NCBI GenBank assembly: GCA_017512285.1
Contig: JAFWGU010000038.1
Coordinates: 1 to 64,000 of the forward strand
DNA: 64,000 nucleotides
Direction: 5' to 3'
From: Erysipelotrichaceae bacterium
Lineage (GTDB): Bacteria; Bacillota_I; Bacilli_A; Erysipelotrichales; Erysipelotrichaceae
The position numbers and the translations under genes are program-made. Positions 58,866 to 63,378 of this stretch are shown here, piece by piece (positions within the stretch are counted from its first letter, which is position 1; each line of letters opens with the position of its first letter). Below the pieces are notes generated by a model, which did not search any database, was not told the DNA's origin, and saw only the letters and a program-made list of their open reading frames with translations.

Positions 58866-59534
58866 ATGATAAACATCGGTCAGATAGTATTGGATAATTT
58901 CAGGAAGAATTTTGAAATAACGGAAAATGACATTGGCAGTGACGCCGTTTTAAAGAAGAGCATGATGAAGTTCGTCACCAGGACTTATGACATCAAGGAT
59001 TTTGGGCATCTCTGCGTAATGAACATGGAAGGCATGCTGGGACTCATGAAGATGGAGACGGTCATTCTGGTTCCACTTGATAAGGACGTACCGCTGGTTG
59101 ACTTTGACTACATAAGCGCCATGGGCAAGGAAACCTACATTGCCGAATTCTACAGATACATGCTTAAGGAGTATCCGGAGGAATACGTCAGTGAGCTGGC
59201 AAAGTGCCCTGAACAGTATCCTGAGTTGGGAGAATACAATAGCGGCGAACACTGGTATGACAGCGAGAAGTATTACTGCTCATGCGGCAAGACCGGCAAG
59301 AAGAGCGCAGACAAGTTTACCCAGATAACCAGGGCTTACATGGATACGTTCTGCAAGCAGGTAGTGAAGATGGAAAAGTGCGACAGAGAGGCCAAGACGG
59401 CTGAAATCAGAAGGTTCGCTGAGACTCTGGTAGCCAAAGGCGGACCGGCAGTTGATACCTTCAAGAAGATGTTCGGAGAAGAGATGACCAGAAGGATCGT
59501 TCTTGAGAACATGTATGGATTGAAACGGCTGTAA
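58866..59534 (+). CDS. Protein of unknown function with a CxC segment
   Basis: A 222-residue soluble protein that I do not recognise. The N-terminal half is an alpha/beta stretch (FGHLCVMNMEGMLGLMKMETVILVPLDKDVPLVDFDYI). A segment YYCSCGKTGKKSADKF lies in the middle and a helical C-terminal part follows (MFGEEMTRRIVLENMYGLKRL). The CSCGKTGKK run is too short for a full zinc finger. GGGGGAG precedes the ATG at 58866, and TATAAT at 58839-58844 is a likely -10. It is monocistronic with a terminator after it. Confidence 0.6.
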   Translation: MINIGQIVLDNFRKNFEITENDIGSDAVLKKSMMKFVTRTYDIKDFGHLCVMNMEGMLGLMKMETVILVPLDKDVPLVDFDYISAMGKETYIAEFYRYMLKEYPEEYVSELAKCPEQYPELGEYNSGEHWYDSEKYYCSCGKTGKKSADKFTQITRAYMDTFCKQVVKMEKCDREAKTAEIRRFAETLVAKGGPAVDTFKKMFGEEMTRRIVLENMYGLKRL

Positions 59535-59549: not shown

Positions 59550-59578
59550 TTTACACTGAAACATAACTGAAATATAAT
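59550..59578 (+). promoter_or_regulatory. Sigma-A promoter of the mgtA leader
   Basis: TTTACA (59550-59555), 17-bp spacer, TATAAT (59573-59578). The start site near 59585 gives a leader of about 140 nt before mgtA. Confidence 0.75.
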
Positions 59579-59606
59579 TTGGTTAGAAAAGGAGATGATC
59601 CACAGC

Positions 59607-59675
59607 ATGACGCATACGGATGATTATCACAGTAGAAACATAACTTATCATGGCGGTCATGCTGCAAATGGATGA
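59607..59675 (+). CDS. Candidate leader peptide of the mgtA operon
   Basis: A 22-codon open frame with AAAAGGAG 12 nt upstream. It begins MTHTDDYH and ends GGHAANG, with four histidines and an Asp-Asp pair at codons 5-6. An in-frame ATG at 59595 would add four residues but leaves no room for a ribosome binding site. The last codons (Gly-Gly-His-Ala-Ala) are the 5' arm of the 14-bp leader stem, and the TGA lies in its loop. A ribosome finishing the peptide would keep this stem open. The peptide shares no sequence with enterobacterial MgtL. Its translation is predicted, not shown. Confidence 0.5.
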   Translation: MTHTDDYHSRNITYHGGHAANG

Positions 59676-59703
59676 CACTTTTTTCAGCAGCATAAAGACC
59701 GCC
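59652..59703 (+). promoter_or_regulatory. Leader stem 1: translation-sensitive hairpin before mgtA
   Basis: GGCGGTC (59652-59658) pairs with GACCGCC (59697-59703), and ATGCTGC (59659-59665) pairs with GCAGCAT (59687-59693), leaving a 3-nt bulge AAA and a 21-nt loop that includes the leader peptide stop codon. All 14 pairs are Watson-Crick. The bottom two pairs use C59702 and C59703, bases also needed by stem 2. Confidence 0.75.
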
Positions 59704-59722
59704 TCCTAAAAAGGAGGTTTTT
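59702..59722 (+). promoter_or_regulatory. Leader stem 2: ribosome-binding-site sequestering hairpin / terminator
   Basis: CCTCCT / AGGAGG with an AAAA loop, followed by five T residues. The 3' arm is the mgtA Shine-Dalgarno sequence, 7 nt before the ATG. The hairpin could therefore both terminate transcription and hide the ribosome binding site. Full stem 1 removes its two lowest C-G pairs. Confidence 0.75.
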
Positions 59723-59724
59723 AT

Positions 59725-62343
59725 ATGGCAAGAAAGAACAATAATGCCGACAGCAGGCTCGTAGAAAAGAAGCTCGAAGATTACGCTCTTCTGAATAAGG
59801 AGGAGCTGTTCGAGCGTTTTGAAATTGATAACGGCGGCTTAAGCACGGAACAGGTAACAGCCAATACCGAGAAGTACGGCAAGAACATAATAAACCAGAG
59901 CAATGAGAACACGTTGATAATCCGTCTCAAGGACGCCATCATCAATCCGTTTAACATCGTTCTTCTGGCAGTATCAGGCGTTACGTACTTCACAGACGTA
60001 GTGTTGGCTGAGAAGGCCAGCTATGCGACCTTTGCGATGCTGCTGATCATCGTGGCCATTTCCTCTGCCGTATCTTTCATACAATCAGAGAAGAGCAATA
60101 ACGCAGCCAGACAGCTGCAGAAGATGATCAGCAACAACATCGAGGTAATAAGAAACGGCTATACCCTGAGCATCAACATTGAGGATGCCGTTCCCGGTGA
60201 CATCGTAAAACTGGGAGCCGGGGACATGATACCGGGCGACGTCCGCTTCTATGATCTGAAGGACCTGTTCATTGACCAGTCACAGCTTACCGGTGAATCG
60301 GTACCGGTGGAAAAGTTTACCGACTGCCGTGAGCATGACAACATAACCGAACTGTCAAACATCGGCTTCATGGGCAGTAACATCGTTTCAGGCAGCGCCA
60401 AGGCCGTAATTCTTTCCACGGGGAATTACACCTACTTCGGCTCAATGGCCAAGTCACTGTCTTCTGAAGACACCAGAAGCACCTTTGATGAGAACATGGA
60501 TTCCATTTCCAAACTGCTCATCAGGTTCATGTTCGTAATGATTCCGGTGATCTTCATTGCCAACCTTCTGACCAAGAACAACTGGCTTGATTCCCTGATG
60601 TTCGGCATTACCATTGCCGTAGGCCTGATGCCGGAGATGTTACCGGTTATCATGACAAGTTCTCTGGCCAAGGGCGCCATTACCATGAGCAAAAAGAAGA
60701 CCATCGTCAAGCGACTGGGCGCCATTCAGACCTTTGGTGAAATGGACGTATTGTGTACGGATAAGACCGGTACGCTGACTGAGGATAAGGTAATACTGGA
60801 AAAGTATCTCAATGCCAGAGGCGAGGAGGACATCAGAGTACTGTCCCATGCCTTCCTGAACAGCTACTTCCAGACGGGAATGAAGAACCTGATGGACAGA
60901 GCCATCATTGCCAGAGGCGAGAAGGAAGGACTTAACAGACTAAAGAGAGAATATGTAAGGGAAGATGAGATCCCATTTGACTTCCAGAGAAGAATGATGT
61001 CCGTTGTAATGAGGGACAAGAACATCAAGCGTCAGCTCATTACCAAGGGAGCTGTTGAGGAAGTAATATCCCGCTGCCGTTACGTTGACGTCAACGGACA
61101 GGCAGAGGAAATAAATGATGAGTGGCTGAACATCGCCCGCAAGGTGGCCGATGACAATGGCCGGGAAGGCATAAGGGTAATTGCCGTTGCCCAGAAGAAC
61201 GACATTCATGACGTTGATACCTTCGGCGTTGATGATGAAAAGGACATGGTATTGCTGGGATTCATCGGTTTTCTGGATCCGCCTAAGGAATCAGCCAAGC
61301 CGGCTCTGGACAACCTGAAGAAGAGCGGTATCAGGACAGTCGTTCTTACCGGCGACAGTGAAGGTGTTGCGATTGCCGTTTCCAAAAGACTTGGAATCGA
61401 CGTTACCTATACGTATAACGGCGCAGCCGTAGATAAGATGAGCGATGAGGAGCTGATGGAAGCCTGCGACAGATGTTACGTCTTTGCCAAGCTCAACCCG
61501 ATGCAGAAGAAGAGGATCGTTGACATCCTGCAGCAGCAGGGTCACACCGTCGGCTACATGGGTGACGGCATCAACGACTCACCGCCTCTGAAACAGGCAG
61601 ATGTCGGCATATCAGTTGATACGGCCGTGGACATCGCCAAGGAAGTAGCTGACATCATCCTCCTCGAGAAGGATCTGCAGGTGCTTGAGGACGGCGTCAT
61701 GGAAGGCAGAAGAACCTTCGCCAACATGAACAAGTATCTCAAGATGGCCATTTCCGGTAACTTCGGCAACATGCTGTCAGTGGTGATAGCCTCACTGTTA
61801 TTGCCGTTCTTGCCGTTAAAGCCGGTACACATTCTGGTTCAGAACATTCTCAATGACTTCGCTCAGCTGGGTATGCCGTTTGACAATGTTGAGCCTGAAT
61901 ACGTTGAAAAGCCGAAGAAGTGGAACGTTACGGGAATCAGAAAGTTCATGGTTTACTTCGGATTACTGTCAACCGTTCTGGACGTATTGTGCTTCGGGGT
62001 ACTGTGGTTCGTATTCCGTTATGACAATCAGTCCGTGGCAGAGTTCTTCCAGTGCGGATGGTTCATGTTCGGCGTAATTTCCCAGACGATGGTAATTCAT
62101 ACCATCAGAACTCATAAGATCCCGTTCATCGGGGCTAACGCTTCAACGCAGCTGTACATATCCAACATTGCCGTCGTCATCATTACGCTGGTGATCGGCA
62201 TGACGGACATTTCCGGAATATTCGACATGGGCAAGGTACCTGGAATCTACGGATTATGGATGCTGCTGCTGTTACTGATTTACCTGATCATGGCCCAGAT
62301 AATGAAGAAGATCTACATCAAGGTAAACAAGGAATGGATATAG
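59725..62343 (+). CDS. mgtA: Magnesium-translocating P-type ATPase MgtA
   Basis: An 872-residue P3B-type ATPase that imports Mg2+ using ATP. The N-terminal cytoplasmic tail is followed by the first helix pair. The actuator motif is LTGESVPVEK near residue 188. Helix 4 reads VGLMPEMLPVIMTSSLAKGA, where the PEMLP core is characteristic of MgtA. The phosphorylation site CTDKTGTLTEDK is near 345, VLTGDSEGVAI near 540 and MGDGINDSPPLKQADVGIS near 612, and six C-terminal helices follow. The length is normal. Expression probably depends on the leader upstream. The next gene, 12 bp away, encodes an MgtE-like cytosolic Mg2+ sensor. Confidence 0.93.
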   Translation: MARKNNNADSRLVEKKLEDYALLNKEELFERFEIDNGGLSTEQVTANTEKYGKNIINQSNENTLIIRLKDAIINPFNIVLLAVSGVTYFTDVVLAEKASYATFAMLLIIVAISSAVSFIQSEKSNNAARQLQKMISNNIEVIRNGYTLSINIEDAVPGDIVKLGAGDMIPGDVRFYDLKDLFIDQSQLTGESVPVEKFTDCREHDNITELSNIGFMGSNIVSGSAKAVILSTGNYTYFGSMAKSLSSEDTRSTFDENMDSISKLLIRFMFVMIPVIFIANLLTKNNWLDSLMFGITIAVGLMPEMLPVIMTSSLAKGAITMSKKKTIVKRLGAIQTFGEMDVLCTDKTGTLTEDKVILEKYLNARGEEDIRVLSHAFLNSYFQTGMKNLMDRAIIARGEKEGLNRLKREYVREDEIPFDFQRRMMSVVMRDKNIKRQLITKGAVEEVISRCRYVDVNGQAEEINDEWLNIARKVADDNGREGIRVIAVAQKNDIHDVDTFGVDDEKDMVLLGFIGFLDPPKESAKPALDNLKKSGIRTVVLTGDSEGVAIAVSKRLGIDVTYTYNGAAVDKMSDEELMEACDRCYVFAKLNPMQKKRIVDILQQQGHTVGYMGDGINDSPPLKQADVGISVDTAVDIAKEVADIILLEKDLQVLEDGVMEGRRTFANMNKYLKMAISGNFGNMLSVVIASLLLPFLPLKPVHILVQNILNDFAQLGMPFDNVEPEYVEKPKKWNVTGIRKFMVYFGLLSTVLDVLCFGVLWFVFRYDNQSVAEFFQCGWFMFGVISQTMVIHTIRTHKIPFIGANASTQLYISNIAVVIITLVIGMTDISGIFDMGKVPGIYGLWMLLLLLIYLIMAQIMKKIYIKVNKEWI

Positions 62344-62355
62344 GAGGCATGGACA

Positions 62356-63378
62356 ATGACTGAAAAGATAAATGACGAAATGATGGACGAAAGATATTAT
62401 GCCCAGGAGATATTCGATCTGGTCCGCAAGACACCGGATAAGAAAAAACTTGCCAATGCCCTGTCATACTATCATGACAACGACATAGCCAGTGCTCTGA
62501 GCTATCTTACACCAAAGGAAAGAAAGCATCTCTATGATTCAATCGGCATAGAGAATACTTCCCGTGTCTTCGCCTATCTGGATGAAGACGTAGACAAGTA
62601 CTTCGCAGAACTGGAAGCTGAACAGGCTGCCGACATCATTGAGGAAATGGACGCCGACGATGCCGTCGACATCCTGGAAGGACTAAATGATACCAAGGCC
62701 AGGGAGATCATCAAGAATCTGGAACCGGAAGCCAAGGAGGACATTGAACTGATCAATTCCTACGCTGACAATCAGTTCGGTTCACTGATGACCACCAACT
62801 ACATTGCCGTGAAATACGGTCTCTCCCTCAAGGATACAATGACCTCTCTCATTGAACAGGCCAAGGAAAATGACAACATCGGTACGATTTATCTGCTGAA
62901 TGAAAATGACACGTTGCATGGCGCCATTGACCTGAGAGACGTGCTTACGGCCAAGAATGAAGAAGAGTTTGAGGAAAGGATCATCACGTCATACCCGTAT
63001 GTATATGCCGACAGGCTGATCAGCGACGAATCACTGGACAGTCTGATCGACTATGACGAAGACTCCATCCCGGTACTGTCTGAGCAGACAAACGAACTGT
63101 TAGGTGTAATCACTGCGCAGGATCTGGCAGAGATCTCATTCGACGAACTCGATGAACCGGAAGAAATGGAAGAGGCCAAGCCTGTTGAAAAAAAGGACAG
63201 AAGCTGGATGCTGATACTGTGCGGTCTGGCCGTTCTGGTCATTGCCGCATTGATCGGACATGGTTCACTGCCTGATGACAAGACCAGGGAAACGGCATTC
63301 ATCCTGCTGCTGATCGCCGGTGCCGTAATGAGCGGTGCAGGGCTGTACGTTTCCACTTCCCGTAAGAGGGAACAATAG
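62356..63378 (+). CDS. Pore-less MgtE-like protein: N domain and CBS pair with two membrane helices
   Basis: A 340-residue protein. Residues 1-125 are the MgtE superhelical N domain (EIFDLVRKTPDKKKLANAL, AADIIEEMDADDAVDILEGL), and residues 130-265 are a CBS-domain pair (FGSLMTTNYIAVKYGLSLKD, IGTIYLLNENDTLHGAIDLR, DEDSIPVLSEQTNELLGVIT). In MgtE these bind Mg2+ and close the channel. Here the five-helix pore is missing. Instead there is an acidic linker and two helices (about 286-305 and 312-331). It cannot be a channel by itself and is more likely a Mg2+ sensor that acts on MgtA or anchors to it. GGAGGCATGG precedes the ATG. Confidence 0.88.
   Translation: MTEKINDEMMDERYYAQEIFDLVRKTPDKKKLANALSYYHDNDIASALSYLTPKERKHLYDSIGIENTSRVFAYLDEDVDKYFAELEAEQAADIIEEMDADDAVDILEGLNDTKAREIIKNLEPEAKEDIELINSYADNQFGSLMTTNYIAVKYGLSLKDTMTSLIEQAKENDNIGTIYLLNENDTLHGAIDLRDVLTAKNEEEFEERIITSYPYVYADRLISDESLDSLIDYDEDSIPVLSEQTNELLGVITAQDLAEISFDELDEPEEMEEAKPVEKKDRSWMLILCGLAVLVIAALIGHGSLPDDKTRETAFILLLIAGAVMSGAGLYVSTSRKREQ

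Follow-up and report, generated by a model that had tools for sequence, protein, structure and literature searches.

The leader that precedes mgtA in the window (the whole stretch of 64,000 nucleotides of Erysipelotrichaceae DNA analysed here) probably operates as a translation-coupled attenuator of that gene, in which four RNA regions would combine into the pairings 1:2, 2:3 and 3:4. Comparison with relatives shows, as far as sequences can, that region 3 pairs either with region 2, which would leave the Shine-Dalgarno (SD) sequence of mgtA free, or with region 4, which would hide it. The same comparison shows that the short open reading frame (ORF) of the leader is retained, that its N-terminal core is conserved and that its 3′ half supplies region 2.

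All the parts of this locus lie on the forward strand. Transcription is expected to be driven by a promoter of the sigma-70 type (TTTACA-17-TATAAT, 59550-59578), which agrees with the consensus at 11 of 12 positions, has a 17-nt spacer and predicts a transcript start near 59585, about 20 nt 5′ of the leader ATG, and hence a leader of about 140 nt. The SD sequence of the leader ORF, AGGAG (59590-59594), is located 12 nt 5′ of the start codon, a long distance that counts against the model, and the ORF itself, MTHTDDYHSRNITYHGGHAANG (59607-59675), comprises 22 codons, with its ATG at 59607 and its TGA at 59675. Region 1, CAGCATG (59603-59609), contains this start codon and has its partner at 59658-59664, inside region 2 (GGCGGTCATGCTGC, 59652-59665), which is itself part of the ORF and forms the 5′ arm of stem 2:3. 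The 3′ arm of that stem is region 3 (GCAGCATAAAGACCGCC, 59687-59703), whose 3′ part doubles as the 5′ arm of hairpin 3:4 (AUAAAGACCgCCU with AGGaGGUUUUUAU, 59692-59724), predicted to hide the SD of mgtA. Region 4 (59712-59724) consists of this SD, AGGAGG (59712-59717), followed by UUUUUAU, and adjoins the ATG of mgtA (59725-62343), whose product, a P-type Mg2+ ATPase, scores 994.7 bits against TIGR01524 (cut-off, 610.75). The original prediction, made from the letters of this DNA, had described here a leader ORF, a 14-bp stem and a hairpin on the SD, and all three can be read from the sequence where it placed them.

The Rfam search of the window, relaxed thresholds included, gave no match to a riboswitch or aptamer, and the M-box aptamer model (RF00380) had no match in the window either; a riboswitch was consequently rejected. 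Additionally, there is no room for an aptamer in this leader, since the promoter puts the expected first nucleotide of the transcript immediately 5′ of the leader SD. A search for copies of the leader on plasmids found none. As for the neighbouring genes, the one on the 5′ side of the leader (58866-59531) has a weak similarity, under the Pfam cut-off, to ferredoxin-dependent bilin reductases. The gene that begins 12 nt after mgtA (62356-63378) codes for an MgtE-like protein that has only the intracellular N domain and a CBS domain, together with what appear to be two membrane segments, and is devoid of the MgtE channel part. A gene of this kind is also found 3′ of mgtA in those loci of clades A and B (see below) that are long enough to show it, with 57-98% identity, and its product may partner MgtA as a Mg2+ sensor.

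The leader region of the window folds much better than its shuffled versions (z = -3.67), none of 200 shuffles being equally stable. In stem 2:3, GGCGGTCATGCTGC pairs with GCAGCAT-AAA-GACCGCC (59687-59703) through 14 bp, with the AAA as a bulge. Hairpin 3:4, in its conserved form, pairs AAAGACCgCC of region 3 with GGaGGUUUUU of region 4, the core ACCgCC/GGaGGT being lengthened by A:U pairs into the TTTTT. This hairpin occupies the entire GACCGCC, which is also needed by the GGCGGTC of region 2 within the ORF and, as both structures use region 3, stem 2:3 and hairpin 3:4 are mutually exclusive. The original prediction had limited their competition to two base pairs, which is an underestimate: the whole GACCGCC is contested, and the 2-bp overlap belongs to a register in which CCTCCT (59702-59707) pairs with AGGAGG (59712-59717), before the TTTTT. 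That register, found only in the window and in its 99% relative, was rejected as the conserved hairpin. A point against the model is that stem 2:3 of the window is compatible with a 4-bp hairpin on the mgtA SD. The two global folds of the window come out as iso-energetic in the predictions, at -39.2 and -38.9 kcal/mol. With regard to intrinsic termination, hairpin 3:4 has a 7-bp stem with a run of U, but this run is itself paired, with AAA, and abuts the start codon, and in L041 it is interrupted. It is therefore more likely that 3:4 acts mainly on translation, by hiding the SD, than as a terminator, and owing to the U run it may also terminate weakly.

Relatives of mgtA were gathered from genome collections, and a covariance model built on the common RNA element yielded 23 matches in 245 genomes of the family, one per genome, 22 of them directly 5′ of mgtA (one of these at a contig end, where it was checked by eye); as most of the matched sequences had also been used to build the model, this search speaks for specificity and not for independent discovery. 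The weakest match, in G102 (E 0.006), was marginal and, with no leader ORF seen there, was treated as chance. The 22 genomes that bear the element fall into two clades, in neither of which an M-box was found. Clade A (seven genomes) includes the genus of the window and one neighbouring genus, with peptides of the form ..DYHS[RK].. such as MSHPDDYHSKRIMKYSGHAASRQ, MSRLDDYHSRHITESGGHAAEKHLFF and MSQTNDYHSRHLNTLGGHAAPGQ. Clade B (15 genomes) corresponds to a third genus that has the same RNA layout and an unrelated peptide, M[ED]xxE.PLS (for instance, MEAAEIPLSC..., MDASEVPLSC... and MEAGENPLSC...). Thus, the three elements of the original prediction are all kept before mgtA in these relatives: the leader peptide, the stem to which its final codons contribute and the rival hairpin that would mask the SD. 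It had also held that the model would fail if relatives retained mgtA and lost the frame or the pairing; no such loss is seen in close relatives, but more distant mgtA genes of the same genus carry other leaders.

What is conserved among the element-bearing leaders is the GGCGGY of region 2 (41-48 nt after the leader ATG), the RCCGCC of region 3 and the region 4 formed by the mgtA SD (GGAGG), a C or T and the U run. In stem 2:3, 94% of the cells are paired and three positions have changed on both sides, giving a covariation score that was reached in none of 500 shuffles. When hairpin 3:4 is counted in register, 156 of 160 cells are paired, there is a single mismatch (G.A or G.G) in every case, and one of its positions varies among G-C, C-G, A-U and G-U. 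Among 2000 trials in which arms were exchanged between species, 4 attained this level of pairing. The count is only marginal in the MAFFT register, which displaces the window and L004 by one base and so understates the helix. Covariation had been suggested as a check of the two stems originally predicted, and compensatory changes are seen in both 2:3 and 3:4. Beyond these stems there is in clade A, judging by its sequences, a third pairing, in which the surroundings of the leader start codon take part: in 7/7 rows, CAGCATG can pair with the CATGCTG of region 2, and one position varies among C-G, U-G and U-A. The corresponding shuffle test, on seven related rows only, is not significant (214/500). 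RNAalifold recovered hairpin 3:4 unprompted in both clades, and with it, in clade A, the pairing 1:2.

The peptides are constrained in a different part of the leader. Codons 6-9 (D-Y-H-S, 59622-59633 in the window) are invariant in clade A, where D6 is the only invariant acidic residue, codon 5 being Asp, Thr or Asn; because of this single residue, clade A makes a weak case for ribosome destabilization. The invariant codons of clade B are 7-9 (P-L-S), and Glu or Asp occupies codons 2 and 5; the peptide 3′ of this core varies freely, and region 2 is found in any of the three reading frames. As the N-terminus is conserved in clade B while region 2 shifts frame, the peptide core and the RNA seem to be kept for separate reasons. 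The peptide conservation originally looked for consequently holds for the N-terminal core within each clade, but the clade B peptide is unrelated to that of the window. The core codons are also fixed at their wobble positions (TAT CAC AGT in clade A and CCT TTA TCG in clade B), which suggests a nucleotide- or codon-level constraint on the core. Selection on the peptide is favoured by a third leader type in the genus of clade B, MEDPLS, which keeps P-L-S with a different Ser codon. Another family of mgtA leaders, found in one genus (L135, L136, L137, L140, L142, L143 and L144), has ME.QSC and, after it, S.DDDPLG, which places a DDDP stretch in the middle of the peptide.

In the mechanism that we propose, ribosomes that read the whole leader would cover region 2, allowing 3:4 to form and turning mgtA off. 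By contrast, ribosomes slowed or lost in the N-terminal core, at about codons 5-9, would occupy the start region and leave region 2 free, in which case 2:3 would form and mgtA would be translated. If the leader were not translated at all, 1:2 and 3:4 would form and mgtA would be off too. The most likely trigger of leader abortion at the acidic codons is low Mg2+, which, by analogy with MgtL and MgtQ, would act through weakened ribosomes on the early Asp, Glu and Pro codons. We infer Mg2+ as the signal from the target gene, from the enrichment of acidic residues in mgtA leaders and from the M-boxes found in tandem with some of them.

These last two observations come from a scan of mgtA upstream regions in Erysipelotrichia and Lactobacillales for ORFs of 10-50 codons preceded by an SD, with similar peptides removed and with the upstream regions of other genes at the same loci as controls. 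A short acidic ORF, defined by at least two Asp or Glu in residues 2-12, is present in 69 of 124 (56%) non-redundant mgtA upstream regions. The corresponding number averages 13.6 in dinucleotide shuffles (maximum, 23) and is 4 for the opposite strand, and among the control regions such an ORF is present in 25 of 429 (5.8%). Related species retain some similarity, and the count thus overstates the independent cases. The same caveat goes for the motif [DE]PxS, spotted in these data before being counted, which is carried by 19 of 238 unselected non-redundant mgtA leader ORFs (expected, 2.2, with a maximum of 7 in 500 shuffles) and in 3 of 407 control ORFs. Many acidic leader ORFs follow an M-box, which ties them to Mg2+; the order M-box, short acidic leader ORF and mgtA is observed in L065-L067, L085, L091, L190, L203, L208-L212, L214-L216, L263 and L264, and would place two putative Mg2+ sensors in series. 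Pairing between the ORF and downstream sequences shows, over 64 leaders, only a modest excess relative to shuffles (mean z -0.74, with 13 of 64 below -2), and for this reason we do not extend the switch to all of these leaders. Neither is the leader pattern universal, as some of the mgtA genes inspected (e.g., L247 and L251) show no leader ORF. It is, in our opinion, about as likely as not that Bacillota own a widespread class of mgtA leader peptides, with [DE]PxS or acidic residues early in the core, in which abortive translation serves to sense low Mg2+; such leaders would work by themselves, the window being an example, or behind an M-box, with two independent Mg2+ checks per transcript.

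Other readings concern the conserved core. With the RNA switch unchanged, the core (DYHS, or PLS in clade B) could be a specific arrest peptide that responds to a signal other than Mg2+, such as the state of the ribosome or a metabolite, and its invariance in both residue and codon, the single invariant acidic residue of clade A and the recurrence of PLS with another Ser codon in MEDPLS all fit this idea. However, dozens of unrelated mgtA leaders share an enrichment in acidic residues and Pro and no single arrest motif, and the tandem M-boxes indicate Mg2+, so we regard it as unlikely. A classical amino-acid attenuator, with the ribosome stalled by uncharged His or Tyr tRNA, might be suspected from the four His of the window peptide and the invariant Tyr7-His8 codons of clade A. 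It is nevertheless highly improbable, given that neither His nor Tyr is conserved in clade B, that neither clade has a run of codons for one regulatory amino acid and that the gene encodes a Mg2+ pump. Trp-type attenuators use the same four-region logic governed by the position of the ribosome on the leader ORF, but the window leader is without their run of one regulatory amino acid, and its output is an SD hairpin.

It is also quite improbable that the RNA senses Mg2+ directly and that the ORF is incidental. Although ions could shift the balance between the iso-energetic folds, the N-terminus of the ORF is conserved in 22 genomes while its frame and C-terminus drift, no Rfam aptamer is found and the transcript begins at the leader. 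Finally, short ORFs are common upstream of genes, and a chance ORF next to an ordinary SD hairpin would have no regulatory role; this explanation is hardly conceivable in view of the conservation, the covariation, the position before mgtA and the enrichment over control genes, and the comparative data already contradict it.

The attenuator that we favour resembles systems described in enterobacteria. In Salmonella, mgtQ, a short ORF with early acidic codons in the mgtC-mgtB intergenic region, governs a choice between 1:2 plus 3:4 and 2:3, where 3:4 hides the SD of mgtB, a gene for a P-type Mg2+ ATPase (PMC8092293). The window leader has the same 1:2, 2:3 and 3:4 layout and, according to its sequence and predicted folds, the SD of a Mg2+ ATPase gene would likewise be hidden in 3:4 and released by 2:3. 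However, mgtQ has 8 codons and lies within an operon, whereas the window leader has 22 codons, follows its own promoter and belongs to Bacillota, and no sequence similarity between them was noted. MgtL, whose acidic, proline-containing start is reported to make ribosomes drop off at low Mg2+ (PMC11282234), is also a leader peptide of mgtA, and the early Asp, Glu and Pro codons considered here would correspond to its abortion site. By contrast, mgtL works by Rho-dependent termination and differs from the window, with its SD hairpin, in both peptide and RNA; its EPDP motif is absent from the window peptide (MTHTDDYHSR...). The M-box (RF00380) likewise provides Mg2+ control of Mg2+ transporter genes and sits before mgtA in relatives, 5′ of the leader ORF, but is absent from the window. 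In Mycobacterium tuberculosis, the uORF Rv1805A is similarly a short conserved ORF between an M-box and a Mg2+-related gene, although there the uORF itself is the riboswitch target and the gene is not mgtA (PMC12810186). A search of the open-access literature turned up no account of leader peptides before mgtA in Bacillota. Leader peptides of Mg2+ transporters with a switching RNA are known in enterobacteria, and their mgtA form in Bacillota is apparently undescribed so far.

If this mechanism holds for Gram-positive bacteria, the use of ribosome stability as a Mg2+ sensor would be a general strategy, repeatedly invented and often stacked behind a riboswitch. Additionally, these leaders would offer many natural sequences from which to learn which nascent residues make ribosomes fall off.
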